Origin: Candidatus Aenigmatarchaeota archaeon
Lineage (GTDB): Archaea > Aenigmatarchaeota > Aenigmatarchaeia > CG10238-14
DNA length: 37,761 nucleotides
Assembly: GCA_018920345.1 (NCBI GenBank)
Contig: JAHLMN010000003.1
Coordinates: 1 to 37,761, forward strand
Direction of reading: 5' to 3'
In this document: positions 17,044 through 37,761 of the stretch, in pieces
Layout of the letters: each line of letters begins with the position of its first letter
Position numbering within the stretch: position 1 is the stretch's first letter
Made by a program: the position numbers and the translations under genes
The notes under the pieces: generated by a model
The model's database searches: none
What the model was told of the DNA's origin: nothing
What the model saw: the letters and a program-made list of their open reading frames with translations, nothing else

Positions 17044-18852
17044 TTAGCTTATGATAGTTTTTATATTTTTTCCTGAAACCAACGCCTTTAGAACTTCTTT
17101 ACCTATTTCAGACGATTTATTAATTTTTACTTCATTTTTCTTTCCTACTGTAGCAGAAATAATAAAATCATTATCTATGTAGATAGATATTTGCTTTCCT
17201 CTAACAGATTTTTCAAAAGTAAAAATTATAGAATTTCCTGATTCCAAAATTTTATGAGCAACTTCTTTGCCAATACTAGGTATTTTTGGCTCAACATCTA
17301 TATTTATACCAAGCTTCTTTTCTATCTCAGTTATATTTTTTCCTTCTCTGCCAATTAATCTAGCTATGCAGTTATTATCAACTCTAACTGTAACTCTATT
17401 ATTAGAAGAAAAAATAATTTCTGCTTCAGGATCATATTTTTTTATCTCTTGATATATTGCTTTCTTAGCAAGCTCTTCTACAGGTGATTTGCTTTCAGCT
17501 TCTATAGGTATAACAACATTTTCTTCTCCATAAGAGTATATTTCATAAACAAGCTTACCAGACTCAAAATCTCTTACTTCTACGACAGGTCTTGCTAGAT
17601 CAGCTTCTGTCATACCAGTAGGCACTTTAACTGTTAGCTTTAATTCATAAACATTTTTTATTTCTCCATCTTTCAAAAATATTACAGTATCTATCACATG
17701 AGGAATCATACCAAGCTCTATTTTTCCTATAAATCTTTGTATGGCATCTATAGCTTCAGATGCATGAACAACACCTATCATTCCTATACCAGATAAACGC
17801 ATATCTGCGAAAACTCTGAAATGCTTTTCCAACCTAACCTCATCAAATATAGTATAATCAGGCCTTACAAGTAAAAGAATATCTGCAGTCTTGGCAAAAT
17901 CACCATTTAGAGGACCATATTGTGTCACTTGATCAGGTACCTGTAAATCTTTCGGTGATTCTAAAGTCTTTATTATAACATTTTTTTCTTTTATTAAGAA
18001 TTCAGCTATAGATGTTGCTAATGTGCTTTTTCCACTACCAGGAGGACCTGCTATTAAAATTCCTTCAGCCTTATTTTTTAATCTTTCCACAAGTTTATTT
18101 GATAGCTTATAATCCTCTAGTCTAAGTTTTATTACAGGTCTAACAATAGTTATCTCAAATCCATCAGAAAAAGGAGGACGAGCAACAGCAATTCTATAAT
18201 TACCTAATTGAATAACAATAGCTCCACCATTTTCTGCTTCTATAAAAGCATCATCTCTGCTTCTAGCAATCTCAATTATCTCGTAAATCATTTTTTGAAC
18301 TTGCTCTCTTGTTAAAACATCGCCAACTTTATCTAGACTTATTCTTCCAGGTTTACCTCTTTTTGCCATAACAGGAACATTTTCCTTTATATGTAAACTC
18401 ATAGTATCTTCAGTAAAATATTTTTCGAAACTCAATTCTTTTACTTGAACATCAGGTGGTATATATTCTGTTTTTACACCTTCAGCTTCACCTGTTAATG
18501 CTTGTACATAATCAGCAGTTAATAAAACAGCATTTTCATCTTTAGCAACATCTCTTATTATTGCGTCTAACCTACCACCTTTTGCCAATTTTATATCCTC
18601 TAAACTAGGTCTTTCTCCAGAAAATCGAAGGTTTATGTCCATTTTTTCACATAATGTTCTTATTTTTTTCAACTCATCCAATCCTAAAAATCCTGGCTCT
18701 CTACCTTTGGATGCCTGTGCTTGTAACTCATCTAAAACAGCTCTAGGTATAATTATCTCCTTTAATCCCTCTAACTCATTATTTTCAAGCATCTGAGATA
18801 TTCTTCCGTCTACTATAATGCTAGTATCACAAACAATCTTACTTACCTTCAT
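17044..18852 (-). CDS. PIN domain - PilT-type ATPase - KH domain protein
   Basis: N-terminal PIN (IVCDTSIIVDGRISQML...RLDAIIRDVAKDENAVLLTADYVQA); Walker A AGPPGSGKSTLA; C-terminal KH-like CIARLIGREGKNITEIEKKLGINIDVEP. Confidence 0.93.
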   Translation of the reverse strand: MKVSKIVCDTSIIVDGRISQMLENNELEGLKEIIIPRAVLDELQAQASKGREPGFLGLDELKKIRTLCEKMDINLRFSGERPSLEDIKLAKGGRLDAIIRDVAKDENAVLLTADYVQALTGEAEGVKTEYIPPDVQVKELSFEKYFTEDTMSLHIKENVPVMAKRGKPGRISLDKVGDVLTREQVQKMIYEIIEIARSRDDAFIEAENGGAIVIQLGNYRIAVARPPFSDGFEITIVRPVIKLRLEDYKLSNKLVERLKNKAEGILIAGPPGSGKSTLATSIAEFLIKEKNVIIKTLESPKDLQVPDQVTQYGPLNGDFAKTADILLLVRPDYTIFDEVRLEKHFRVFADMRLSGIGMIGVVHASEAIDAIQRFIGKIELGMIPHVIDTVIFLKDGEIKNVYELKLTVKVPTGMTEADLARPVVEVRDFESGKLVYEIYSYGEENVVIPIEAESKSPVEELAKKAIYQEIKKYDPEAEIIFSSNNRVTVRVDNNCIARLIGREGKNITEIEKKLGINIDVEPKIPSIGKEVAHKILESGNSIIFTFEKSVRGKQISIYIDNDFIISATVGKKNEVKINKSSEIGKEVLKALVSGKNIKTIIS

Positions 18853-24131: not shown

Positions 24132-24680
24132 TTATTTACCAGGCGTCGCAATCCAAATTAAAGGTATTATCATAACCAATACCAAACCAAGTGTCAATAA
24201 AATATCAGAAGGTATTACCGCAAGCATATCAGGCGTTAAAAATAAACTAACCAAACCACTTGTAATAAAAACAACTATTCCAACAATAATAGCAATTAAA
24301 AATATTGTTGTTGGAGTAGATCTGCCTTTCCAAATTTCCCATAATTTTTCAGATATATTTTCAGGAAATATCATACCAGCTATCATTAATCCTACCATTA
24401 ATACCAGCATCACAACCATACCTTGCATAAAGAAAGCTGATAAATGAGCTTGTATGTCAACACCATTTATCACAGGGAAAGCCCAAACCATAAAAGCAGC
24501 TGTTAGTGCAATAACACCATTCAAAGCAACATTCCTGTCAGAGTCCGCTCCAAATATTTTCGATTTTCTCAACAAACCATAAAATATAGCAGAAGTAAGC
24601 ATAAATGGGAATAGAAAATTAAATGCTCCAATTTCATTCAATTTTAATATAACATTTCTAAACACGTCAGGCATAAACAA
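24132..24680 (-). CDS. Polytopic membrane protein, paralogue A (YGLLRKSKIFG family)
   Basis: AFNFLFPFMLTSAIFYGLLRKSKIFGADSDRNVALNGVIALTAAFMVWAFPV; same layout and motif as the adjacent upstream gene. Confidence 0.75.
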   Translation of the reverse strand: MFMPDVFRNVILKLNEIGAFNFLFPFMLTSAIFYGLLRKSKIFGADSDRNVALNGVIALTAAFMVWAFPVINGVDIQAHLSAFFMQGMVVMLVLMVGLMIAGMIFPENISEKLWEIWKGRSTPTTIFLIAIIVGIVVFITSGLVSLFLTPDMLAVIPSDILLTLGLVLVMIIPLIWIATPGK

Positions 24681-25208
24681 TCACTTTCTCGGTGGCATTA
24701 CAGATGTTACAGCTATTGCTAAACCCAAAAACAATAACAATACAAACAAAATCACACCACCACTTCCACCTTTGAATATAGTTCCCTGTAAATTTAAAAT
24801 ATTACCCATTCCACTAACAAAAAATATTATTATTCCTATTACAATAAAAATCCAAATCATTGTATTACTTCCTTTAAAAGCATAATTTAAAGCATCAACA
24901 AAATCTGGATATGCAATGCTAGCTCCTAAAAAAGCAAATAGAAAAACTAAAGCAATAATAAAAAATTGAGCAGTAAATATAGACATAGGTTTACCTATTG
25001 ACATTTCAGGCAAAGTTGCAGCATAACCCCAAATAAACAAAGAAAACACAAAAGTCAACAAAGCATAAATTGGCTCTGAATCACCAAATATTTTTGATTT
25101 TCTTAGTAAACCATACATTAAGGCCCAGAAAACAATCATAGGAAGAAGAAAATCATAAATTCCTGTTTCTGCCATTCTTTCTACGAGAACTTTAAACGGA
25201 TTAACCAT
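24681..25208 (-). CDS. Polytopic membrane protein, paralogue B (YGLLRKSKIFG family)
   Basis: IYDFLLPMIVFWALMYGLLRKSKIFGDSEPIYALLTFVFSLFIWGYAATLP; abuts paralogue A with no gap. Confidence 0.75.
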   Translation of the reverse strand: MVNPFKVLVERMAETGIYDFLLPMIVFWALMYGLLRKSKIFGDSEPIYALLTFVFSLFIWGYAATLPEMSIGKPMSIFTAQFFIIALVFLFAFLGASIAYPDFVDALNYAFKGSNTMIWIFIVIGIIIFFVSGMGNILNLQGTIFKGGSGGVILFVLLLFLGLAIAVTSVMPPRK

Positions 25209-25241
25209 AATTAAATATTAAAGTTTTTTCAATAAATACTT

Positions 25242-25958
25242 TTAATTTTTTCTTTTCATTTCATGAACCAAATCAGTTAATGCTCTAACGCTTTCTATTA
25301 ATGATGGTAAAGCCTCTTTAAAAGTTTTTTCTAAACTTGACATTTTTGCATTAAGTTCTTCAACACTATCTCTCAAAGAATCAATTTTTGATATTGTTTC
25401 AGATTCCCTTTCCTTTCCACCTTTTGCGACAATTGAAAGTTGATTATGTAAATCTAAAATCTTTCTTTCTAATTCATTATACTTGTTTCTGAATTCAACA
25501 AGCCTCTCATCAAGATCAGCCATTTTTTCATGTACTATAGATTCTATTACTTCTTCACTTATGTATTCTTGTGGTTGATAATATTCTTGTTGTTGTATTG
25601 GTTGTTGTGGCTGAAAAGATTGTGCTGGCTGAATAGGTTGAGAAGGATTTTGTTGAAAACTTTGGAAGAAAGGTTGTAAATCACCAGATTGATAATAGCT
25701 ATCTTCTTGCTGTTGATTCAATGTATTTAGCGTAGGCATAGAATTTTCTTCGCCTGTTACACCAATTTTAAGATTTTGGGTTAATGCTCTATCAATCTCT
25801 TCAGAGCTGAAACCATCTTTTCTTAATATATCAATTATTTCTGGCTCAGAGAAACCTTTATTGCTCAAATCCTTTACTTTGTCTGTTGGTATAAATCCTT
25901 TACCTATTAAAGGAGGTTTTTCTGGTTGTTTTTTTGCTCCACCTAAAAACTTGATCAA
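25242..25958 (-). CDS. Coiled-coil protein with UBA-like helical N-terminus and Gln/Pro-rich linker
   Basis: VKDLSNKGFSEPEIIDILRKDGFSSEEIDRAL; Q/P-rich SFQQNPSQPIQPAQSFQPQQPIQQQEYYQPQ; C-terminal heptad-rich coiled coil. Confidence 0.7.
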   Translation of the reverse strand: MIKFLGGAKKQPEKPPLIGKGFIPTDKVKDLSNKGFSEPEIIDILRKDGFSSEEIDRALTQNLKIGVTGEENSMPTLNTLNQQQEDSYYQSGDLQPFFQSFQQNPSQPIQPAQSFQPQQPIQQQEYYQPQEYISEEVIESIVHEKMADLDERLVEFRNKYNELERKILDLHNQLSIVAKGGKERESETISKIDSLRDSVEELNAKMSSLEKTFKEALPSLIESVRALTDLVHEMKRKN

Positions 25959-26003
25959 GTTTAAACACCCTTATTATTTTAATAGAATTTTTTTAACTTA
26001 AAA

Positions 26004-26384
26004 TTATTCTTTTTTCTTTTCCAAAATTCTTTCAAGTTCATCCCTTGTTACAAACCTTGACTTTATAGGATTATATAAATCAAGCAAACTTTCCAATTCC
26101 TTAAGCTCTGTCTTTTTTGCTGTCTTCTCCAAATTTTGTTCAAATTTTAACATATTTCCTCTCATTTTTTTTATTTCTAAAGAAAGCTCTCTAACGTCAG
26201 CACTGAGCTGATCAAAAGTTATTTTTAATGTCTTCATTTCATCTATTATCCTTTCTTCTATACCTTTTATTCTAGAATCAATAACATCCAATCTTTGCTC
26301 TATTATCCTAATTCTTCTTGTATTATCATTTATCCTTCTAACAGTTTCTGTATCAGCACTAGGTTGGACTTTTTCAAAAGCCAT
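26004..26384 (-). CDS. Coiled-coil protein, archaellum FlaC-like
   Basis: Long heptad-rich helix, then LLDLYNPIKSRFVTRDELERILEKKKE; divergent from the secretion ATPase with a 50-bp gap. Confidence 0.6.
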   Translation of the reverse strand: MAFEKVQPSADTETVRRINDNTRRIRIIEQRLDVIDSRIKGIEERIIDEMKTLKITFDQLSADVRELSLEIKKMRGNMLKFEQNLEKTAKKTELKELESLLDLYNPIKSRFVTRDELERILEKKKE

Positions 26385-26434
26385 AATAGTTATTTTGATT
26401 ATTAAGTAAATATAATTTTATTTTAAGTGATAAA

Positions 26435-28675
26435 GTGGTATTCGAAACTGAATATATGGATGGAATACTAAAAATGAATTGTCTAGACAGTATATTCGGT
26501 TTTAATTTAGAAGATTCTGAAACAATAATGGCTACAATAATAGATAAAATTTTAGAGTATAAAAGAGTAGAAAGAATAATCCTTTCTGAAAGAAGAGAAT
26601 ATGAATATGATTTTGAACAAACAAAGCTTTTGGTAGAAATTGCAAATATCTATGACAAAATACTCAATAAAGACAGAATATTAGAAGATCCTATATTTTC
26701 TAACCCTTTATTTAGACAATTTATATCAGAGTCCTATCAAATCTTAAGCTCAGTCATAGTTGATATGCTTAAAAAAGATCCAATAGGAGCCTATGTAAAA
26801 ATAAAGAGAATGACAAGATTATATGAAACAAAGCTAGAAAAAACAACAAACAGAAACGAAAGAATAGCAATAAAATTATTATTGAATAAACTTAAAACCA
26901 TAAAAACATTATTAGAGCAAACAACTTTAATAAAATCTTGCCAGGATAATCTATTTGCTCATAAAATAGGAGATAGAGAGCTTTATAGAAAAATATTCAA
27001 TCCAATGATTAGGCCTATTTTTATGCTAACTAGATATACTTCATTACCTCCAAAAAATAGCAGGTTAGTTGAAAGATATAGTTTACCAGATGGAGTACAA
27101 GTTGAAATATTTCGAGTTCCTGATAAAGTAAGATATTATTATTTTTTAAATGCACCTGAGTTTAGATTAGATGACGAAAAATATTTTATATTGGAAACAG
27201 CCAGACAACAACTAGCCGAGCATAAACCTTCAGAAACAGAATTTACTCAACCAGAAAAAGTAAGAGAAATTTTTACAAATATAGGTAGAGATATGATAAT
27301 GCAATTAAGTGGAAAAAAATTCAATTCTAAAGAAATAGAAGAAATGACGAATATACTCGTTAGACATACTACAGGTTTTGGTGTTTTAGAGCTTCTTTTG
27401 AATGATGAAAAACTTCAAGATATCTATATAAATTCTCCTGTTGGCATAACACCAATATTTGTACATCACGATGAATATGACGAATGTGAAACAAACTTAA
27501 TACCAACAAGAGAGGACGCAGAAAGTTGGGCTACAAGATTTAGACTATTTTCTGGTAGACCTTTAGATGAAGCTAATCCAGTTTTAGATACAGAATTGTT
27601 TGTGCCAGGAGGAAGAGCGAGAGTAGCTGCAATCACAAGGACTTTAAGTCCTGAAGGTATAGCATATGCATTAAGAAGGCATAGAGATAGACCATGGACA
27701 TACCCTCTTTTTCTTTCTCAAAGATACTTTTCGCCCTTGTATGCAGGATTGATGAGTTTTATAGTTGATGGGTCAAGATCAATATTATTTGCGGGTGGTC
27801 GTTCTTCTGGCAAGTCAAGTATGCTTGGTGCAACAATGCTAGAAATAATGAAAAAATTCAGAATAATAACTGTTGAAGATACACTAGAGTTGCCTGTTCC
27901 ACAGTTAAGAAATTTAGGATACAACATTGAAAGAATGAAATCTCGATCAGTAATTACCAGAGTCGAGTCTGAATTACCAGCCGACGAAGCTTTAAGAACA
28001 GCTTTGCGTTTAGGTGATTCTTGCTTAATAGTAGGTGAGGTAAGGTCTAAAGAAGCTGTAGCTCTATTTGAAGCAATGAGAATAGGTGCTTTAGCCAATG
28101 TAGTTGCAGGAACAATACATGGAGAAAGTGCTTATGGTGTTTTTGACAGAGTTGTTAATGATTTAGGCGTTACTAAAACAAGCTTTAAGGCAATTGATAT
28201 AGTAACTATATCAGGTATGATAAAATCAGCTGATGGTTTGAGAAGATTCAGAAGGGTTTTAGAAGTAACTGAGATAAGAAAACATTGGAAGGATGATCCT
28301 ATATCAGAAAATGGTTTTGTAAATTTAATGGAATATTCTGCTAAAGATGATATGCTTAAACCAACTGATACTTTGTTAAATGGAGAATCTTATGTAATTA
28401 ATGAAATTTCAAAAAGAGTAAGAGAGTGGCATGGAAATTGGGAAGCTGTTTGGGATAATATAGAGTTAAGGGCAAAAATAAAACAGGCCATGGTTGATTA
28501 TGCTGCAAAGTTAAATAGAAAAGATATTTTAGAAGCTGAATGGGTTTCAGCAAGCAATGAAATGTTTCACTTAATTTCAGATCAAGTGAAAAGAGAATTA
28601 GGTCAACTGGATTCAAAAGAAATATTTAATAGATGGAACGAATGGTTTAAAAATAGTTTAAGAGGGAGAAAATGA
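26435..28675 (+). CDS. Type IV pilus / archaellum-type secretion ATPase (TadA/FlaI/VirB11 family), GTG start
   Basis: Walker A FAGGRSSGKSSML, TVEDTLELP (Asp box), Walker B CLIVGEVRSKEA, His box AGTIHGESAYGVFDRVVNDLG; ~300-aa N-terminal region. Confidence 0.93.
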   Translation: MVFETEYMDGILKMNCLDSIFGFNLEDSETIMATIIDKILEYKRVERIILSERREYEYDFEQTKLLVEIANIYDKILNKDRILEDPIFSNPLFRQFISESYQILSSVIVDMLKKDPIGAYVKIKRMTRLYETKLEKTTNRNERIAIKLLLNKLKTIKTLLEQTTLIKSCQDNLFAHKIGDRELYRKIFNPMIRPIFMLTRYTSLPPKNSRLVERYSLPDGVQVEIFRVPDKVRYYYFLNAPEFRLDDEKYFILETARQQLAEHKPSETEFTQPEKVREIFTNIGRDMIMQLSGKKFNSKEIEEMTNILVRHTTGFGVLELLLNDEKLQDIYINSPVGITPIFVHHDEYDECETNLIPTREDAESWATRFRLFSGRPLDEANPVLDTELFVPGGRARVAAITRTLSPEGIAYALRRHRDRPWTYPLFLSQRYFSPLYAGLMSFIVDGSRSILFAGGRSSGKSSMLGATMLEIMKKFRIITVEDTLELPVPQLRNLGYNIERMKSRSVITRVESELPADEALRTALRLGDSCLIVGEVRSKEAVALFEAMRIGALANVVAGTIHGESAYGVFDRVVNDLGVTKTSFKAIDIVTISGMIKSADGLRRFRRVLEVTEIRKHWKDDPISENGFVNLMEYSAKDDMLKPTDTLLNGESYVINEISKRVREWHGNWEAVWDNIELRAKIKQAMVDYAAKLNRKDILEAEWVSASNEMFHLISDQVKRELGQLDSKEIFNRWNEWFKNSLRGRK

Positions 28676-30687
28676 AAAATCTTGATAAATTAAGTGAAAA
28701 TTATCAACACGGTTTAACAGTTAGAAAATTATCATCAGATTTTGTGCAATTTTTGAAAGAAGAAAATGAGAAAAAAAGCTTTTATGAAAATATATGTTCT
28801 TTTGCAGGTTCAATAATAAAGTTTTATCCAGGTGAAGAAAAGACAAAAGAGCTACAACAAAAACTAGATTTTAGCAACATGAAAATTAAAGCAGCAGATG
28901 TATATTCTGCTTTTGTTTTAATGATAATATTTACTATATTTGTAAACTCAATTGCAACAATAACATTTATTTTACTTGGCTATACTTTTGGTGAAACATT
29001 CAAATATATATTTGTTACATCGTTAATAGGTATATCAATATCTTACTATATACTTGTTTATCCATCAATTTATGCTAAAAAGTTAAGAGTTGAAGCCAGC
29101 TCTGAAATAGTTCAAACAATTTTATACATTTCTATAGGTCTTAAAAATGTACCAAATTTAGAAAGTGCTGTAGCATTTGCTGCTTTTAATCTAGAAGGCC
29201 CGATGGGAAAGGATTTGAGAAAAATTTTGTGGGATGTTTATATAGGCAAATACAGCAGGATAGAGGATGCTTTGGATGATTTTTCAAATAAATGGAAGTT
29301 TGAAAATAGAGAATTTTCTCAAGCTTTAGATTTACTAAAAACTTCTGTAACAGAGATATATGATAGAGACAAAATCATTGAAAGAGCCATTTCCTTGATC
29401 TTACAATCTAACATGGAGAGAATGAACCAATATGCAAGAGAATTGAAAAATCCTATAACAATGATAAATGCTTTAGGCATCTTGTTGCCAGTAATTACTT
29501 TGATTCTATTTCCTATACTCGGAATAATAATGCCTTTTTTAATAAGTCCATATACTTTGATTTTTATTTACAATATTATTTTGCCTCTAACGGTTTATTT
29601 TCTGATGAAAAACACTTTAGATAAAAGGCCATATTCTTTTCATACAGTTAATATAAAAAATCATCCTGAAGCATCTGACTTTGGCTATTTATCTTTGAAA
29701 TTAAAAGACAAAAAAATCCAAATACCTATTTTGCCTTTTTGTATACTGATATTAGTTTTTCTTTCTTTTAATGCAATAATTGGAATGATAAATATAGATA
29801 AAGATACTTCTATTAGCACAAGAGTATTATATGGTTTACAAATATTTTGGGCTATATCAATTTCTACAATCATTTTTACAATGGTTTCTTCTAATAAAAA
29901 CAAAAAAATAAAAAAAGAAATTGAAGAAATAGAATCAGAGTTTGCTGAGGCAATATATATTTTGGGCAGTACTATAAGATCGGGTCAACCTTTAGAAGCT
30001 TCATTAAGGAAAACTAATGAAAGACTAAAAGATCAGAAAATTCATTCATTTTTTGAGAAAATAATAAATACTATGAACACAATGGGTGTAACTTTAAAAG
30101 AAGCGATTTTTAACAAAGATTTTGGAGTAATAAAACACTATCCATCAAAAACAATAAAAAATACCATGAAAATAGTTGTAGAATCATCCTCTAAAGGATT
30201 AAATACAGCAGCTTCTACATTAACAGCAATATCTCAATACATGAAAAATGTTCATGATGTTGATGAACATTTAAAACAATTTTTAGAAGACGTAACATCC
30301 TCTATGAGCTTAATATCATCTTTTCTTGTTCCTTTGGCTGCTGGAGTAGTAGTAGGTTTAGGAGCAATAATAATGAAAATATTAATATTTGTTGCCAGTC
30401 TTTTTAATCAACTGCCTATAGATCAACAAGAAATTCCTATAATTGGAACAAAAATAGAAGCTATTATGCCGATAGAGATACTCATAATAATCGTCGGAAT
30501 TTATATGATTGAATTAATAATATCTATAAACATTTTCAGGATACAAATAGAGAAAGGAAACGATTTAACAGAGATAGGTTATTCTATTGGTACAAATCTG
30601 ATAAGCGCATCTTTAATATTTACAATAACAATATTAATAATACATTTTGGTTTAGGTTCAATAATAGATTTCACTATAAGTGTATGA
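28672..30687 (+). CDS. Tandem T2SF platform membrane protein (FlaJ/TadC-like)
   Basis: Two repeats of a cytosolic helical T2SF-like domain followed by TM helices; 4-bp ATGA overlap with the ATPase stop. Confidence 0.85.
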   Translation: MKNLDKLSENYQHGLTVRKLSSDFVQFLKEENEKKSFYENICSFAGSIIKFYPGEEKTKELQQKLDFSNMKIKAADVYSAFVLMIIFTIFVNSIATITFILLGYTFGETFKYIFVTSLIGISISYYILVYPSIYAKKLRVEASSEIVQTILYISIGLKNVPNLESAVAFAAFNLEGPMGKDLRKILWDVYIGKYSRIEDALDDFSNKWKFENREFSQALDLLKTSVTEIYDRDKIIERAISLILQSNMERMNQYARELKNPITMINALGILLPVITLILFPILGIIMPFLISPYTLIFIYNIILPLTVYFLMKNTLDKRPYSFHTVNIKNHPEASDFGYLSLKLKDKKIQIPILPFCILILVFLSFNAIIGMINIDKDTSISTRVLYGLQIFWAISISTIIFTMVSSNKNKKIKKEIEEIESEFAEAIYILGSTIRSGQPLEASLRKTNERLKDQKIHSFFEKIINTMNTMGVTLKEAIFNKDFGVIKHYPSKTIKNTMKIVVESSSKGLNTAASTLTAISQYMKNVHDVDEHLKQFLEDVTSSMSLISSFLVPLAAGVVVGLGAIIMKILIFVASLFNQLPIDQQEIPIIGTKIEAIMPIEILIIIVGIYMIELIISINIFRIQIEKGNDLTEIGYSIGTNLISASLIFTITILIIHFGLGSIIDFTISV

Positions 30688-30688
30688 A

Positions 30689-30844
30689 ATGAAAGGAATA
30701 TCAAGATCCATAATAATATCTTTGATTTTTTTAATAGTAGTTATGCTATTTTTAGTTTTAGCATTCACAATATTTAACGAAAAAGTGAAGGAAATAGAAC
30801 CTGTGCTCAATAATATATTTAAAAAAGCTCTCAAGGTGAATTAA
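30689..30844 (+). CDS. Small pilin-like single-TM protein, 51 aa (not in ORF track)
   Basis: MKGISRSIIISLIFLIVVMLFLVLAFTIFNEKVKEIEPVLNNIFKKALKVN*; K-G then hydrophobic stretch (class III signal-like); last base of stop overlaps next ATG. Confidence 0.75.
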   Translation: MKGISRSIIISLIFLIVVMLFLVLAFTIFNEKVKEIEPVLNNIFKKALKVN

Positions 30845-31029
30845 TGAAAAAAGGACTAAGCGGTTTTATTTTGGCAATATTGATAACATTAATTGTAGCT
30901 TTAATAGCTTCTGTTATTTTTTGGATATTTCTAAGAAACACAACAGAAGGAGCAAAAACTTTTAGTGAGCAAATATATACTCAAATATGTGAATCATTAG
31001 GAATTTTGAAAGGTTTAATGGGATGTTAA
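30844..31029 (+). CDS. Small pilin-like single-TM protein, 61 aa
   Basis: MKKGLSGFILAILITLIVALIASVIFWIF...; KKG then hydrophobic helix. Confidence 0.75.
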   Translation: MKKGLSGFILAILITLIVALIASVIFWIFLRNTTEGAKTFSEQIYTQICESLGILKGLMGC

Positions 31030-31030
31030 A

Positions 31031-31156
31031 ATGGAAATGAAATTCATTATTGCAATTATATTGGGTATTATTTTACTAGGAATTATTTTATATATTATAT
31101 CATTACAATCAGGTATATTAGATAATTTAATAGAATGGCTAAATGGTTTGGTTTAA
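31031..31156 (+). CDS. Small single-TM protein, 41 aa (not in ORF track)
   Basis: MEMKFIIAIILGIILLGIILYIISLQSGILDNLIEWLNGLV*; sits exactly between two genes of the same strand. Confidence 0.65.
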   Translation: MEMKFIIAIILGIILLGIILYIISLQSGILDNLIEWLNGLV

Positions 31157-32551
31157 ATGTCTGAAACAACTACAAATTTAGTAATATTTTTTATTTTGTC
31201 AATTGTAATACTTTTATTTCTTTTAACATCTTATAACAAATTAACTAAATGGTTGTGTTTTAATAATACATTTTTATGTGTCAAATCCAAGCTTGAAATG
31301 GCTGTAGAATGCTCTTATTATAGATGTAAAGAAGGTTGTAACAGTGATGTAATAGATAAATTAAGAAAAGAAGATTTTAATTGTAGAGATTTTTGCTTAA
31401 AAGAATGGCAAGATGAAGAAGGAAAAATTTGTAATGATAATTCATTTTATCATCCTGTTATTGTGAAGAATATAAAAAAATATGATTACACTGAAAGTGA
31501 TTTTGGTTCTAAATGTGTTTTGAAAATAGATTCATACAAAAATACAAATTTACAGGATATTATTAATTTTGCAAAAGCTTTAACAATCGATGAAGACAAA
31601 TTTTTTGTTCATATTGAAAAATCTCTTTTGAATGATGACAAAACAAATACCGAAAGTACATGTTTAAATCAAATTCTACCTGTATCATTTAGTAGAATAA
31701 AAAAATTTAGTTTTGAAAAAGATAATTACGAATATTTTATTTTTACAAAATATACTCAATTGCCTAATATGGTTGGAAAATACTCTTATGCAACAAATGT
31801 TTTTATTCTAGAAAATATTTGTGAAGCTTGCACAGATAATGATTGTTGCAGTAAACTAATAGATTATGGAATAGATTGTTTCTTTGCTAACGGAGAATGC
31901 TTTTATAATAAAGGTGATTGTGATAGTTGTGGCAAAAATGAAGATTGTTGTAAAAAATTTTCGAAAGATGGAAAAGACTGTATTTTTAGTGGATTAAAAT
32001 GTTATAAAAAAGATGAATTAGATGAAATATGTAAAGATAAAACTCAATGTAGCGAATCCCATAATGATGTAGAGTGCTGCAATTATTTATCTATAACTAA
32101 AAAGGCAAATTGTTTTTATAATTCAAATGATGGAAGTTGTTTAGAAGAAAAAGAAATAACATGTGATGATAATAAATTTAATTTTGGCATTCACGATATA
32201 TGCTTTTATTCATCGGAATACTTTTGCTATCTTGAAAACAAAGACCTTATAGCGTCAGGTTGTTATAATTCTCATTGTTATAAGATTTGTGGCTCTTTAG
32301 TTGATATAAAATCATACAAAGAAGAAGGAAATACATTTCAATCATATTTTTCAGATTATAAAGACTGTGTATTCGCAATAAATGTATTTAATGAAAAATA
32401 CAACTCAAATATTGATTATAAAGTATGTTGCGAAAAAGTTAAGAGTTGTAGTGATTATAAATCCCGTAATTTATGTGAACAAAATGATTGTAGTGTAGGC
32501 GATTGTCATTGGAATGATACAAATGGAGGGTGTGAAGATTGGAGTCAGTAA
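31157..32551 (+). CDS. N-terminally anchored Cys-rich extracellular protein with repeated disulfide-type modules
   Basis: N-terminal TM TNLVIFFILSIVILLFLLTS; repeats CEACTDNDCCSKLIDYGIDCFFANGECFY / CDSCGKNEDCCKKFSKDGKDCIFSGLKCYK / CSESHNDVECCNYLSITKKANCFYNSNDGSCLE; terminal CSVGDCHWNDTNGGCEDW. Confidence 0.8.
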   Translation: MSETTTNLVIFFILSIVILLFLLTSYNKLTKWLCFNNTFLCVKSKLEMAVECSYYRCKEGCNSDVIDKLRKEDFNCRDFCLKEWQDEEGKICNDNSFYHPVIVKNIKKYDYTESDFGSKCVLKIDSYKNTNLQDIINFAKALTIDEDKFFVHIEKSLLNDDKTNTESTCLNQILPVSFSRIKKFSFEKDNYEYFIFTKYTQLPNMVGKYSYATNVFILENICEACTDNDCCSKLIDYGIDCFFANGECFYNKGDCDSCGKNEDCCKKFSKDGKDCIFSGLKCYKKDELDEICKDKTQCSESHNDVECCNYLSITKKANCFYNSNDGSCLEEKEITCDDNKFNFGIHDICFYSSEYFCYLENKDLIASGCYNSHCYKICGSLVDIKSYKEEGNTFQSYFSDYKDCVFAINVFNEKYNSNIDYKVCCEKVKSCSDYKSRNLCEQNDCSVGDCHWNDTNGGCEDWSQ

Positions 32552-32715
32552 AAATTATTATTGAAATAATTTTATTAGTGGTATTTTTATCCATTTTAAT
32601 ATTTTTCATAATTAATTTATCTAGAACATCAAATGAAAAATCTATGACAGATAGATTAAATAAATTATTGAACAAGTCAATTTTAATAATATTAAAAAAA
32701 TCTATATTTATTTAA
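32539..32715 (+). CDS. Small single-TM protein, 58 aa (TTG start, not in ORF track)
   Basis: TTG at 32539 overlapping the upstream stop; MESVKIIIEIILLVVFLSILIFFIINLSRTSNEKSMTDRLNKLLNKSILIILKKSIFI*. Confidence 0.5.
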   Translation: MESVKIIIEIILLVVFLSILIFFIINLSRTSNEKSMTDRLNKLLNKSILIILKKSIFI

Positions 32716-32732
32716 AAACAAATAATTAAATT

Positions 32733-33236
32733 ATGAGAGGTTCAATTAGTTTAGTAATAACTATAATATTTACTGTCATGATTATTATTTCTATAATAAT
32801 GTTTTTTCCATCTATAAAAAACACTTTTACATATAACTGTGTCAATATAGTAACTCAAAAGCTCGATTTAATAAAGATTAGATCGTGTGAAATGACTGAC
32901 ATTGATTTAGAATATATAGAAAAAATAGATTTATCTTGTTTAGAAAAAATTACATACGTAGAAAATCAAAACAGCCCACAACTATTATTAAAGGTTAGAG
33001 ATAGAGACAAAGATTATGTATATAAAACAACATGTGAAGACGGACAGTATGGAAATGTAGAATTTGATTTTTCTTCAGCTGGAAACAAAAATGAACTCAA
33101 AATAGATAGAGAAAAATACAATTTTTTAATTTCGCCTTTTAAAATAAAACTAGTTTTTTGTGAAGGAAATGAAAATTGCTATAATATGAATGAGGAACAA
33201 TGTTCAAAAAATACAGAATGTAGGGTCATAGATTAG
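32733..33236 (+). CDS. Pilin-like protein with N-terminal class III-type signal and Cys-containing C-terminus
   Basis: MRGSISLVITIIFTVMIIISIIMFF; C-terminus FCEGNENCYNMNEEQCSKNTECRVID. Confidence 0.75.
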   Translation: MRGSISLVITIIFTVMIIISIIMFFPSIKNTFTYNCVNIVTQKLDLIKIRSCEMTDIDLEYIEKIDLSCLEKITYVENQNSPQLLLKVRDRDKDYVYKTTCEDGQYGNVEFDFSSAGNKNELKIDREKYNFLISPFKIKLVFCEGNENCYNMNEEQCSKNTECRVID

Positions 33237-33237
33237 T

Positions 33238-33681
33238 ATGAGCGAGGAAAACATTTCAGAGCCAATAAATTTTTACATAATTGTTTTTGGTTTAATTGTC
33301 ATTTCCATAGTAATACTAATACCTATAATAAATTCAATAAATGTTTTTATCTATTTCTTTTCAAAATCAAATTCAGAATATGTTAGCGAAATGATAACAG
33401 AATTAGTTACTGTTTCTTCTGGTGTGCCTGGAGATGTAGAAATAAAATTTGTCAAGCCATCAGAAAATAAATATAATATAATGTTTAATCAAAAAATGGT
33501 TTATGTAGAAATGTATGATTACAAAAAACCATTAGGTATTTCCGATGATTTAATTGAAGAAATGTCAAAAAAAAGCTATTATTCATCTGCAGTAAACTTT
33601 ACTTCAAACAATATATTAGATTTCAATTTAATAAAAATTAGAAAGAGCAAAGAAATAAATATAGAATCTATAGGAAGTTGA
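33238..33681 (+). CDS. N-terminal TM anchored extracellular protein (pilus cluster)
   Basis: EPINFYIIVFGLIVISIVILIPIINSINVF TM; FLAG-like-free soluble C-terminus; 1-bp gap from the upstream stop. Confidence 0.65.
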   Translation: MSEENISEPINFYIIVFGLIVISIVILIPIINSINVFIYFFSKSNSEYVSEMITELVTVSSGVPGDVEIKFVKPSENKYNIMFNQKMVYVEMYDYKKPLGISDDLIEEMSKKSYYSSAVNFTSNNILDFNLIKIRKSKEINIESIGS

Positions 33682-33684
33682 ATT

Positions 33685-34566
33685 ATGAGTAAAGGAACAT
33701 CTTTGGCAATAGGTATAGGAGAATTTATATCACTTCTAGTTTTGATAGGAATAATTCTTTTAATAATAAGTTTTGTTTTCAGAGATGTTTTAGTTTTAAA
33801 GATAGAAAAAGAAAACTATATAGAAAAAGGAAAAACAATAAATCTAGCAAATTCTATAATAACTGAATCTAACATAGTTTCTTTAGACGAATTAGGTCAA
33901 AAAAGAAAAGGAATAATAAATATAACAGAATTAGAAAAAGTAAGTAATATTGAAAAACCTTTAAAATGTTGTGAATATGTTGATTATGATTATTATGCTA
34001 ATATAAAAATTAATTCAAAAAATCAAAATTATTTAATAGGATACAAGTTTAATGATTTAAAAGAATTATTTCAGTTGGAAAAAATTTGTATTAAAAATAC
34101 CGAATCTAAAACTTTAGAAAAAATAAAAATTCCTTTAATTGTTCAGGATCAAGATAAAATGTATGATGCGTCAATGGAAATATCTTTAGCAAAAACTCCT
34201 ATAAGTTATATAGCAACAGAATTAAATGTTGCTTGTATAAAAGATAATTATCAAAATACTATACCTATTTATGGTTTTAATCAATACCATTTTTGGATAG
34301 AAAAAAAAGACAATACTTATACTGTTTGTACTAGGACATATAAAGATGTTTTTATGTGTAAAGATGTTTTTTGTGAAAAAAATATTAAAGTGAAAAAAAT
34401 AGAAGGTGATTGCAGAAATGATGATAAAAAATGTTTAAAAGGATGTAGTTATTTTTTTGATAACGATTGCAAATTGGAATCTTGTGGTGTAGCAAAAATA
34501 ATATCAAAGAGCAATGAGGTAGTAATATGTTTTGCAAATACAGAAAAGGAATTGGAACAATGCTAG
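33685..34566 (+). CDS. Pilin-like N-terminal TM protein with Cys-rich C-terminus
   Basis: MSKGTSLAIGIGEFISLLVLIGIILLIISFVF; C-terminal GDCRNDDKKCLKGCSYFFDNDCKLESCG. Confidence 0.75.
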   Translation: MSKGTSLAIGIGEFISLLVLIGIILLIISFVFRDVLVLKIEKENYIEKGKTINLANSIITESNIVSLDELGQKRKGIINITELEKVSNIEKPLKCCEYVDYDYYANIKINSKNQNYLIGYKFNDLKELFQLEKICIKNTESKTLEKIKIPLIVQDQDKMYDASMEISLAKTPISYIATELNVACIKDNYQNTIPIYGFNQYHFWIEKKDNTYTVCTRTYKDVFMCKDVFCEKNIKVKKIEGDCRNDDKKCLKGCSYFFDNDCKLESCGVAKIISKSNEVVICFANTEKELEQC

Positions 34567-35078
34567 GTATAGCAATATTTTTAGTAGTTTTGGCTATTTG
34601 CTTAGCTTTATTTATAAAATTTTTTAGATATACAATAGTAATATCTGAGCGAGAAGATATAAAAAAAGATAGAGATTCTTTATTGTTTCTTTCCATAATA
34701 AACAAAGAATATACCTATGGAAATTTTGTTGTTGCTTTGTCGACTGATCCAGAAAAAACAATTGATGAAATAAGTCAATATATAAAAAAATTCTCATCTA
34801 TAGAATCTGTTCAAACAAATAACCCTCCTCTTAGCAGACCTCAACAAACAATTCAACCTTATTATACAAACCCTCCTCTTAGCAACACACAAATGAGCAT
34901 ATATTATTATTATAATTTTAATGGAAAAGAGGCCACAATATATTATATATCGAATGGGCTTTGTTTTAATGAGCCAATGAAATGTAAAAAATACACATAT
35001 ATAAACAGAATTCCAATACCAAAAATATACGATGGCAAAGAATTTGTAAGCGAGGGTATATTTATAAGTTTTGCGTGA
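34527..35078 (+). CDS. Pilin-like N-terminal TM protein
   Basis: MFCKYRKGIGTMLGIAIFLVVLAICLALFIKF, KG then hydrophobic helix; 40-bp overlap with the upstream gene; contains a short duplicated NPPLS peptide. Confidence 0.7.
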   Translation: MFCKYRKGIGTMLGIAIFLVVLAICLALFIKFFRYTIVISEREDIKKDRDSLLFLSIINKEYTYGNFVVALSTDPEKTIDEISQYIKKFSSIESVQTNNPPLSRPQQTIQPYYTNPPLSNTQMSIYYYYNFNGKEATIYYISNGLCFNEPMKCKKYTYINRIPIPKIYDGKEFVSEGIFISFA

Positions 35079-35082
35079 TCAA

Positions 35083-36045
35083 ATGAAAGGAATTAGTTTT
35101 ATTGTACCATTAATAATATTGCTTTTGTTAGTTTCTGTTTTATCGGCTTTCTTTGCATTTCAAAGTAATATTATAATAAAAAAAAGAGAATTCCAAAATA
35201 AAATATTGATTTTAGGTGACAGAATAGAATCTATTGGAAATATAATAAGACAATCTTCAGATTTGGCGACAATTCAAGCAATATACGATGCTGGCAGTTT
35301 CAATTTAGCTATAGATAATGATATAAAGTACAATGATAATGAAAATTTGCCATATTGGGATAATGAAATAAATGAATATATGAAAAAATCTATTTTAAAA
35401 ATATCTGAAATTTATTTTTATAATTATGAAAAAGAATTTGAAAAATATTTCAATGATTTGAACAATAAAAACAAAAATAATTATTGGAAAGTTTATTGGG
35501 AAAAAGACATAAAGATAGAAAAATTTAATGAAGATGAAATATCAATAAATTTCGGAACATTTAATATAACATATTCAGATGATCAGATAAAAATATCAAA
35601 AAAATATCCTATATTGTCTCATGTTAAAACTAATTTTGTCAAAATGTTAAATTACGCAAATGAAAATTACCATAAATTTAAAGATGAAAATTTAGATGCT
35701 TCAATGAAATCAGAAGATTTTACTGTAAAAATAGAGCCTAGATCAGATTATGTAAAAGTTTCTATAAAAGAAATTTCAAAAAGAAAATTATATATAATTG
35801 AAAAAAAGACCCAGAATTACGACAGTATAACTTTGAATTTCGTTATAGATAAATCAAAATGTTTTTGCCCAACAATGTATTGTACAGGCGGCTGCTGGTA
35901 TGGTTCGAGTGGCCCTTTTGAATGTCCAGGATCATGCAGTCCTAAAGGTGAAAATGTAAAAAATTTAAAAAACATAAAAAATTGCGGCGAGATTTATATA
36001 TTATCTAACATAGATCATTCTTGTGAAATTTTTCAAACTAATTGA
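35083..36045 (+). CDS. Pilin-like N-terminal TM protein with Cys-rich C-terminus
   Basis: MKGISFIVPLIILLLLVSVLSAFFAF from internal ATG 35083; C-terminal CFCPTMYCTGGCWYGSSGPFECPGSC. Confidence 0.78.
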   Translation: MKGISFIVPLIILLLLVSVLSAFFAFQSNIIIKKREFQNKILILGDRIESIGNIIRQSSDLATIQAIYDAGSFNLAIDNDIKYNDNENLPYWDNEINEYMKKSILKISEIYFYNYEKEFEKYFNDLNNKNKNNYWKVYWEKDIKIEKFNEDEISINFGTFNITYSDDQIKISKKYPILSHVKTNFVKMLNYANENYHKFKDENLDASMKSEDFTVKIEPRSDYVKVSIKEISKRKLYIIEKKTQNYDSITLNFVIDKSKCFCPTMYCTGGCWYGSSGPFECPGSCSPKGENVKNLKNIKNCGEIYILSNIDHSCEIFQTN

Positions 36046-36058
36046 ATTGTTTTCATAA

Positions 36059-37761
36059 TTATGTCAGTGGATCATCACAATTTCCACTATTTTGATCTAC
36101 TCTGTCATATTCTTTATATCTTTTACAAGTTTCTACAGTAACTTCACAAGGACCACAATCTTTAAGGAATAAACAAGGGTTAATAGAATTTTGAACATAA
36201 TTTTGGGATTCTCTTATTTCGAAATGTAAATGGGGGCCAGTACTTGTTCCACTACAACCATCAGCACCACCACTATATCCTATTATATCACCTGCATTAA
36301 CAGGATCACCAACTTTAACGTTTATTCCATCACATTTAAGATGACCGTATAAAGAATAATATTTATTTCCATCTATAGTATGCTCGATTACTACACGATT
36401 TCCAAAACCATCATTAAAATATCCTGCTCTAACAACAATACCATCTTGAATAGCATGAACAGGTGTACCTTCAACAACACCTAAATCAATACCAGAATGA
36501 AAATATCTATCTGTTCTCCAACCAAAACATGAACTAAACCTTCCACTTCCTTCAAGAGGATGATATGCAACTAATTCACTTTGCTCTAAAATTTCATTAC
36601 TTCTACAACATACAGCATCTACTTGATTGCATGTACCAGAAATTTCTGAATATCCATCAGGGCAAGAATATTTAACACATATATCAGGATATGAACAAAC
36701 TCTAGTTGATTCTGTTGATGTTTCTTCTTGACTAGAATACTTTGCACAATTTTTGGCTCTTAAGTATGTGTTTTCTTTAAAATTATAAAGATATAATATG
36801 TCAGTTGTTAAAAAAGATTCTTTTTCAGTTTCATCATATTTATTTATATTTATTTTTGCTTTACATTCTATGTTATAAGAATTTTTTTCTGAAATTACTA
36901 AATTTTGATTTATTTTTAATTTTATACATTTTGCTGCATCAGGTGAATTACAATCACGAGAAAAATCTATTTTTTTACGATAACTATCTTCACAACTAAT
37001 TATATCGACATAATCTCTTTGTACCAAAAGTTTAATATCCTTAATATTTACAAAGCCTTTTTCATTATTCTTAATATTTATTTGAATTGAAAAATCATCA
37101 GCATACTCTTGAGTTACAATATGAGGCTGAGAGTAAATAAAAACATCTAAAGGCCCTGGTGAAGATATACTTTGAAAAGAAAGGCTACTAATATAACTCT
37201 CATATCTTTTATCTAGTTCATTCATTCTATAGTTAGGTAATATTAAAAAACTAGATTTTCCTCTAGATATTTGTTCTGTATTTAAAATTACATAAAAATA
37301 AATAAAACCTCTACATTTTGATGGTAAAGCTTCAAAATCTATTGTTTGAGGATATATTCTATTATCAGGTGGTATAATTATTTCTTTATTTAATGTAGCA
37401 ATTTTTGTAAAAGTATTTTCTGTTAATAAATATTCATCATTTTCTAATTCAGAAGAAGAAGCTATAACATCAATTTTATTTATTTTTATATCATATATAT
37501 AACTTCCTAGATACTTTTTATAATATTCAGAAGGTATATTTTGATTTCTTAAGAAAAATTTGAATTTATATCCTTCACCTGCTATAGGCATAGCATTACT
37601 TCCATATGTGGGATCTTCAAATTTAATTTCAATATTTTTGTAAAGACCTGCTTTTTTAGAATCTTTGGGTAGACATTCATCAAAATTATATTCAATTAAC
37701 GAGTGAGATGGGTAAAGTCCGCTGGACAGGACATCCCTTCGTTGATGCAGGCTTGGCAGCA
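36059..37761 (-). CDS. Large secreted-type protein with M23 (LytM/Gly-Gly endopeptidase) metallopeptidase domain; N-terminus beyond right edge (partial)
   Basis: CFGWRTDRYFHSGIDLGVVEGTPVHAIQDGIVVRAGYFNDGFGNRVVIEHTIDGNKYYSLYGHLKCDGINVKVGDPVNAGDIIGYSGGADGCSGTSTGPHLHFEIRE with HxxxD and HxH. The frame stays open upstream of the track's Met at 37591 to the window edge. Confidence 0.92.
   Translation of the reverse strand, partial: LPSLHQRRDVLSSGLYPSHSLIEYNFDECLPKDSKKAGLYKNIEIKFEDPTYGSNAMPIAGEGYKFKFFLRNQNIPSEYYKKYLGSYIYDIKINKIDVIASSSELENDEYLLTENTFTKIATLNKEIIIPPDNRIYPQTIDFEALPSKCRGFIYFYVILNTEQISRGKSSFLILPNYRMNELDKRYESYISSLSFQSISSPGPLDVFIYSQPHIVTQEYADDFSIQINIKNNEKGFVNIKDIKLLVQRDYVDIISCEDSYRKKIDFSRDCNSPDAAKCIKLKINQNLVISEKNSYNIECKAKININKYDETEKESFLTTDILYLYNFKENTYLRAKNCAKYSSQEETSTESTRVCSYPDICVKYSCPDGYSEISGTCNQVDAVCCRSNEILEQSELVAYHPLEGSGRFSSCFGWRTDRYFHSGIDLGVVEGTPVHAIQDGIVVRAGYFNDGFGNRVVIEHTIDGNKYYSLYGHLKCDGINVKVGDPVNAGDIIGYSGGADGCSGTSTGPHLHFEIRESQNYVQNSINPCLFLKDCGPCEVTVETCKRYKEYDRVDQNSGNCDDPLT

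Follow-up and report, generated by a model that had tools for sequence, protein, structure and literature searches.

We consider it rather probable that the archaeal phylum Aenigmatarchaeota has a common type IV filament machine which, in a large minority of lineages, displays exchangeable peptidoglycan hydrolases that breach bacterial walls. The machine is encoded at positions 24132-37761 of a 37,761-nucleotide stretch of DNA (contig JAHLMN010000003.1; the whole stretch is called the window below), a block that the original prediction, made from the letters of the DNA, had described as a candidate type IV pilus-like secretion system of a DPANN-type archaeon facing an M23 peptidase. The organism is a DPANN archaeon, a member of the Aenigmatarchaeota, whose cells are tiny and uncultured, and by its gene complement the block is a type IV filament locus. 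All open reading frames (ORFs) that had been described in it were found again with matching coordinates, and the block is contiguous as stated; the system itself extends further, continuing on another contig (C2) and having its prepilin peptidase on contig C3. Our case is built on the gene content of the locus, its neighbourhood across the phylum, prepilin-type N-termini, and the fusion and swapping of domains, all of which are direct observations.

The core machine and its ATPase

On the minus strand, the locus encodes two paralogous proteins with several transmembrane (TM) helices, a Q-rich coiled-coil protein and a short coiled-coil protein; the plus strand encodes the ATPase, a tandem-T2SF platform protein and then eight mostly small proteins that are N-terminally anchored or Cys-rich; and at the contig end, again on the minus strand, lies an M23-domain protein whose start is beyond the contig (Table 1). 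The ATPase matches PF00437 with E=1.3e-14, and its closest solved structures are AfGspE (2OAP, E=5e-28) and FlaI (2e-16), with CpaF also related. Its description as a TadA/FlaI-type ATPase is sound at the level of the GspE/FlaI superfamily, and by curated cut-offs it is neither FlaI nor TadA, since it scores 123.6 bits against the FlaI model (cut-off 550), 112.8 bits against TadA (cut-off 373.15) and 54.3 bits against the BasE model of the bindosome/Bas pilus (cut-off 1000). In the phylogenetic comparison that the original prediction had proposed, made with few reference sequences, it forms a well-supported, long-branched clade of its own, separate from FlaI, AfGspE, CpaF and three paralogues from its own genome (G000). 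Both results agree with the earlier judgement that the locus matches no standard archaellum or Tad system.

We surveyed 156 Aenigmatarchaeota genomes and 66 ATPase loci; sequences outside the window come nearly all from metagenome-assembled genomes (MAGs), and their genes are mechanical ORF calls. The ATPase family occurs in 155 of the 156 genomes, with full-length matches to other genomes that are 51-87% identical. The platform gene, correctly foreseen as a tandem-T2SF gene, overlaps the end of the ATPase gene by 4 bases with its start and has a match in 149 genomes. A prepilin peptidase gene (PF01478, E=7.6e-15) is located at G000:C3:7182, on a different contig from the locus. G000 (0.82 Mb, 95.5% complete) thereby holds what marks the type IV filament superfamily: a GspE/VirB11-class ATPase, a T2SF platform, prepilin-type subunits as judged by pattern, and a prepilin peptidase. 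It has five T2SSE-type ATPase genes above cut-off; three belong to conventional pilus loci with paired single-T2SF genes, and the other two, both within the window, are the locus ATPase and a PIN-domain ATPase.

Archaeal type IV pili (Makarova et al. 2016, PMC4858521; Denise et al. 2019, PMC6668835) resemble the system in several ways: a VirB11/GspE-class ATPase goes with a T2SF platform, class III pilin-like proteins are numerous, the gene for the prepilin peptidase is located elsewhere, and the ATPase/platform module stands partly apart from pilin operons. The system differs from them in its own deep ATPase clade, its dedicated TM family and coiled-coil pair, and its hydrolase-bearing pilins. 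The main texts of these two papers contain no mention of 'Aenigmarchaeum'/'Aenigm...' or 'DPANN'. With the archaellum it shares a homologous ATPase, a tandem platform protein and coiled-coil partners, but the locus ATPase lies below the FlaI cut-off and separates from FlaI in the tree; a scan of ten of the locus proteins brought up no FlaH, FlaF, FlaG or archaellin. The Tad/Flp pilus is alike in ATPase superfamily and small pilins and different in that the ATPase here falls below the TadA cut-off, one tandem T2SF protein stands in place of TadB plus TadC, and no TadZ is found within the window.

In many genomes of the phylum, the ATPase gene carries inteins bearing LAGLIDADG endonucleases (for example L136, L140, G119:C16 and G087:C6), with Pfam Intein_splicing matches down to E=5e-48. 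The insertion sites, about three in number, lie within or close to ATP-binding motifs: one follows GSGK, one follows IED, and one is close to the later VGE region. An ATPase homologue with 62% identity occurs on JAEOTG010000134.1 (L012), filed as a Heimdallarchaeota MAG and likely a mis-binned Aenigmatarchaeota contig.

Conservation of the neighbourhood

Of the 66 ATPase loci, 52-53 include the coiled-coil families, 51 the platform and 38 the TM family, and p293, p324 and p147 were each recognised in 15-17. Membrane family, coiled-coil proteins, ATPase and platform stay together, and the three small proteins accompany them in up to 17 loci; the original prediction had named the lack of such conservation as its refutation. 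In some families (f30-f32), the ATPase is located away from the pilin module, and an ATPase/platform apart from pilin operons was also found for other archaeal pili by Makarova et al. (PMC4858521).

The two membrane proteins of the window are, as had been suggested, paralogues of one family, whose members number 2-6 per locus and lie upstream of the ATPase. Its AlphaFold model is all-helical with about five TM helices, and the best match of this model in a fold search against the PDB reached only E=7.8. The Q-rich protein and the 126-aa protein are homologous to each other across their coiled coils. Like the TM family, this coiled-coil pair is a dedicated, uncharacterised part of the system. 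The earlier label 'FlaC-like' gained no profile support: the 126-aa protein gave no match to the FlaC profile, and we rejected this identity. A third TM-family copy is present at G000:C14:4572-5105, and a decayed one, with one TAG and two TAA as internal stops, at G000:C3:43112-43471 (L239).

At the start of contig C2, a second tandem-T2SF gene is accompanied by a further set of pilin-like genes (G000:C2:1171-5286, L144), followed by signal-peptide proteins and then a MinD/ParA-like ATPase; no member of the window-type ATPase family stands beside this second platform gene. Because congeners place this second cluster after the M23 (or SLT) gene and one lipoprotein-like gene, the window end and the start of C2 probably adjoin in the genome.

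Prepilin-type subunits

Of the small N-terminally anchored, (pseudo)pilin-like or Cys-rich proteins, put at about ten in the original prediction, eight are found on the plus strand, and five of these begin with a prepilin-like N-terminus. Class III prepilin signals were scored as matches to the pattern [KR]G/hydrophobic, in which the stroke marks the predicted cleavage. Such N-termini occur in 88 of 183 same-strand proteins at most 8 kb downstream of the ATPase; for proteins from the rest of the same loci, the figure is 12 of 409 (odds ratio 31, P=1e-39). In an alignment of the p324 family (30 proteins), the Lys of the signal is the sole invariant column. In the AlphaFold model of p324, one N-terminal helix of 69 residues precedes an alpha/beta domain, which is a pilin-like layout; a fold search with this model against the PDB returned 857 matches with E<=10 and no significant one (best E 1.3e-2), and among the matches listed there was no pilin and the probability was at most 0.35. 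The p324 profile was compared with the N-termini of the family-f15 M23 pilins by hhalign (E=2e-4, probability 44%), with a no more than suggestive result from which we do not claim common descent.

Peptidoglycan hydrolases linked with the system

M23, SLT and Amidase_2 domains are present in 56, 46 and 10 of the 156 genomes, respectively. In 36 genomes, from seven families (f1, f4, f15, f16, f28, f30, f31), the hydrolase is on or beside genes of the system, and we call these genomes armed. The tally was made by hand and includes only domains found by Pfam in such positions; short cytoplasmic M23 proteins, viral-looking proteins of about 2000 aa, lipoproteins and the Tat-like amidase of G106 were left out. 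An enzyme lies at most 12.5 kb downstream of the ATPase in 14 of the 56 loci with at least 5 kb of downstream sequence, where about 0.6 would be expected (Poisson P about 1e-14, shared ancestry ignored); the 14 include G106, which is not counted as armed.

The linkage takes several forms. Five genomes (G057, G059, G063, G105, G108) encode, on the strand of the ATPase gene and 8-10 kb downstream from it, an M23 protein with a prepilin-type N-terminus of its own. In families f30 and f31, at least 10 genomes have a module of pilin-like genes that closes with an M23-pilin and then p324, and several genomes of these families (G129, G132, G135, G137, G138, G141, G143 and G144) have an SLT pilin two genes upstream of M23. 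Fusions of p324 itself carry SLT plus Amidase_2 (G018, G020, G075), SLT plus M23 (G028), SLT (G126, G127), Amidase_2 (G035) or SLT plus a C39 peptidase (G019). As an internal control, M23 and SLT proteins that are unlinked to system genes have no prepilin N-terminus, apart from proteins on short contigs and orphan pilin-like genes; G000 itself has an orphan, prepilin-like SLT protein that resembles the p324-SLT type (C17:6862). Most linked M23 members keep the HxxxD and HxH zinc motifs. Since relatives have such enzymes inside the operon, fused to a pilin or with one domain swapped for another, the association of M23 with the system, which in the window had appeared only as a gene facing the block, is a functional linkage.

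The window's own M23 domain matches PF01551 with E=7e-27 and has both zinc motifs, and the C-terminus of the protein is intact although the gene loses its start codon to the contig end. Of the large secreted M23 peptidase originally proposed, the M23 domain is confirmed and free secretion is not: the orthologue has about three N-terminal TM helices as an anchor. In the congener G024, the orthologue, with the same position and N-terminal anchor, carries SLT instead of M23. The TM helices of the orthologue suggest that, in the window lineage, the M23 protein is not on the filament but next to it, anchored at its base or at the cell surface. Another M23 protein of this type is represented by a C-terminal fragment that shares the DDPLT end (G000:C14:37311-37589, L134), which is cut by the contig end opposite to the one near the third TM-family copy. 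G023 has two M23 proteins around the locus, since its second cluster contains an additional one (L101:5766-7880, minus strand), which has many cysteines and an ordinary signal peptide.

Peptidoglycan and bacteria as the probable target

Because three unrelated catalytic families whose usual substrate is peptidoglycan are swapped at one position, peptidoglycan is the likeliest substrate of the hydrolases. Mur_ligase_M has no match in G000 and none in 132 of the 156 genomes, and the wall that is attacked is therefore probably that of a bacterium. The other 24 genomes have one match each (one genome has two); these matches need not mean peptidoglycan synthesis, since the family also matches M. 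jannaschii and H. volcanii. The earlier suggestion of a surface appendage or secretion apparatus for host or cell contact is supported in its general form and changed in its object, from an unspecified host to peptidoglycan as the likely target, that is, to bacteria.

Trans-envelope machines coupled to M23 and SLT hydrolases are found in Gram-positive conjugation (VirB1-like proteins; PrgK with LytM/SLT domains), where the hydrolases open the producer's own wall, whereas here the genome has no Mur ligase match and the wall is likely another cell's. We know of no hydrolase-bearing pilins in the type IV pili of Saccharibacteria. These pili are otherwise a close parallel, in that an ultrasmall epibiont uses them for host contact during episymbiosis, the difference being that Saccharibacteria are bacteria (PMC12206443). 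Castelle et al. 2021 proposed that Pacearchaeota and Woesearchaeota with large murein-transglycosylase proteins have bacteria as hosts (PMC8204110), and archaeal peptidoglycan hydrolases that kill bacteria have been established (PMC12352652). As presented in these two papers, wall-degrading domains are present in archaea with a bacterial target proposed, as here, but the proteins stand alone, whereas the domains described here form part of a type IV filament system of Aenigmatarchaeota, or are linked with it, and include M23 and amidase as well. The open-licence literature gave us no archaeal example of a hydrolase domain carried by a pilin-like protein or linked with a pilus locus.

Model and alternatives

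From these genes we infer filament assembly, surface display of the enzymes, their activity and a bacterial target. In our model, the prepilin peptidase encoded on contig C3 would cut the class III prepilin-type subunits, and the tandem-T2SF platform, driven by the cytoplasmic ATPase, would assemble them into a surface pilus or pseudopilus, with the TM family and the two coiled-coil proteins as putative base components. M23 endopeptidase, SLT lytic transglycosylase and N-acetylmuramoyl-L-alanine amidase would be exchangeable domains on or next to the p324-type pilin, and the hydrolase-bearing subunits would be minor pilins at the tip or base. When the archaeon touches a bacterium, the enzymes would reach the bacterial wall, and a local opening might serve attachment, feeding, exchange of DNA or protein, or killing. 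We give even chances to the more far-reaching proposal of a new cell-contact weapon or feeding device, in which a filament with exchangeable hydrolase subunits at its tip or base drills bacterial walls and the archaea are epibionts or predators of bacteria. Cultivated DPANN archaea are described as living on archaea, and the hosts of most DPANN as not known (PMC11291902). If our model is true, a conserved surface machine with peptidoglycan-degrading domains points a whole phylum at bacteria and names the genes to test, a type IV filament is shown as a carrier of wall-cutting enzymes, and M23, SLT and amidase pilins become a marker for finding further archaea that attack or live on bacteria.

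Several points weigh against this model. Filament, enzyme activity and host are predictions from genes, the class III signals are pattern matches with cleavage that is only predicted, and the models of p324 and the TM family fit no known structure, pilins included. The M23 gene of the window is convergent and its product TM-anchored and without a class III signal; display on the filament therefore rests on relatives. Moreover, 120 of the 156 genomes, many of them incomplete, show no linked enzyme, and the core machine therefore has a function of its own that needs none. Finally, M23 and SLT folds may have other substrates or be inactive.

The first of the alternatives, a device like the type II secretion system in which a short pseudopilus releases soluble peptidoglycan hydrolases for antibacterial or scavenging purposes, retains a small chance: the ATPase has its best match in a GspE-like protein, secretion of the Cys-rich proteins is conceivable, and bacteria-killing archaeal hydrolases are known (PMC12352652). 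However, the enzymes have membrane or prepilin anchors of their own, archaea typically lack an outer membrane that would have to be crossed, and nothing like a secretin or GspC/L/M was seen. Fusions of p324 with enzymes, prepilin-type N-termini on enzymes, domain exchange at one position and linkage far above chance make it unlikely that we are dealing with an ordinary archaeal adhesion or DNA-uptake pilus, with the hydrolases as independent neighbours or as lineage-specific cargo without a role in the filament, even though the three other type IV pilus-type ATPase loci of G000 look ordinary and many lineages have the core without enzymes.

It is also conceivable, and in our view quite improbable, that M23, SLT and amidase were repurposed for a substrate other than peptidoglycan, such as S-layer glycan, pseudomurein or the pilins themselves, for maturation or local opening of the envelope. 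The organisms apparently have no peptidoglycan, so a role in their own envelope would need a different substrate, and relatives of all three folds act on other substrates; yet three unrelated hydrolase families with peptidoglycan as common substrate recur in one slot, most linked M23 members retain HxxxD and HxH, and G000 has no Mur ligase match. An origin of the enzyme genes from integrated viruses, as tape-measure proteins or lysins that came to lie near the pilus locus by chance, is hardly credible. Some M23+SLT proteins of the phylum do look viral, at about 2000 aa (G065), but the linked enzymes stand among p147, p293 and p324 genes at a position that is conserved in several families of the phylum, and have prepilin-type N-termini that the unlinked ones lack, and no viral structural genes lie beside them in the stretches read.

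Features of the locus and other genes of the window

Table 1 Genes of the type IV filament locus (positions in the window; a stroke marks the predicted cleavage site of class III signals)
Feature	Position	Strand	Remarks
TM-family protein, paralogue 2, 182 aa	24132..24680	-	TM family upstream of ATPase
TM-family protein, paralogue 1, 175 aa	24681..25208	-	consensus GFxxFLLPFLLTxAIxYGLLxKxxIFG
Q-rich protein with C-terminal coiled coil	25242..25958	-	family in 53/66 ATPase loci
Coiled-coil protein, 126 aa	26004..26384	-	family in 52/66 ATPase loci
Secretion/pilus ATPase, GspE/FlaI superfamily, 746 aa	26435..28675	+	PF00437
Tandem-T2SF inner-membrane platform protein, 671 aa	28672..30687	+	PF00482, two stretches
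Small pilin-like protein, family p61	30844..31029	+	class III signal MKKG/LSGFILAI...
Cys-rich (42 Cys) N-terminally anchored protein, 464 aa	31157..32551	+	family Cys464, 12/66 loci
Small membrane ORF, 58 aa, tentative gene	32539..32715	+	no homologue by BLAST
Pilin-like p167	32733..33236	+	class III signal MRG/SISLVITI...
N-terminally anchored p147	33238..33681	+	family in 15/66 loci, adjoining p293
Pilin-like p293	33685..34566	+	class III signal MSKG/TSLAIGIG...; family in 17/66 loci
Pilin-like p183	34527..35078	+	class III signal RKG/IGTMLGIA...
Pilin-like p324	35071..36045	+	class III signal MKG/ISFIVPLI...; relatives bear SLT/Amidase_2/M23/C39
M23 metallopeptidase protein, 5'-truncated gene	36059..37759	-	M23 domain 36194-36502, PF01551

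One tRNA-Gly is the only Rfam feature in the window. Outside the pilus locus, the minus-strand gene at 17044-18852 encodes the PIN-domain and T2SSE ATPase mentioned above, which has a KH-like tail and probably belongs to the MJ1533-like group, regarded by Makarova et al. as unconnected with secretion (PMC4858521). At 1-2781, also on the minus strand, two large Asn-rich proteins with hydrophobic N-termini resemble secreted surface proteins; the first of them overruns the contig edge.

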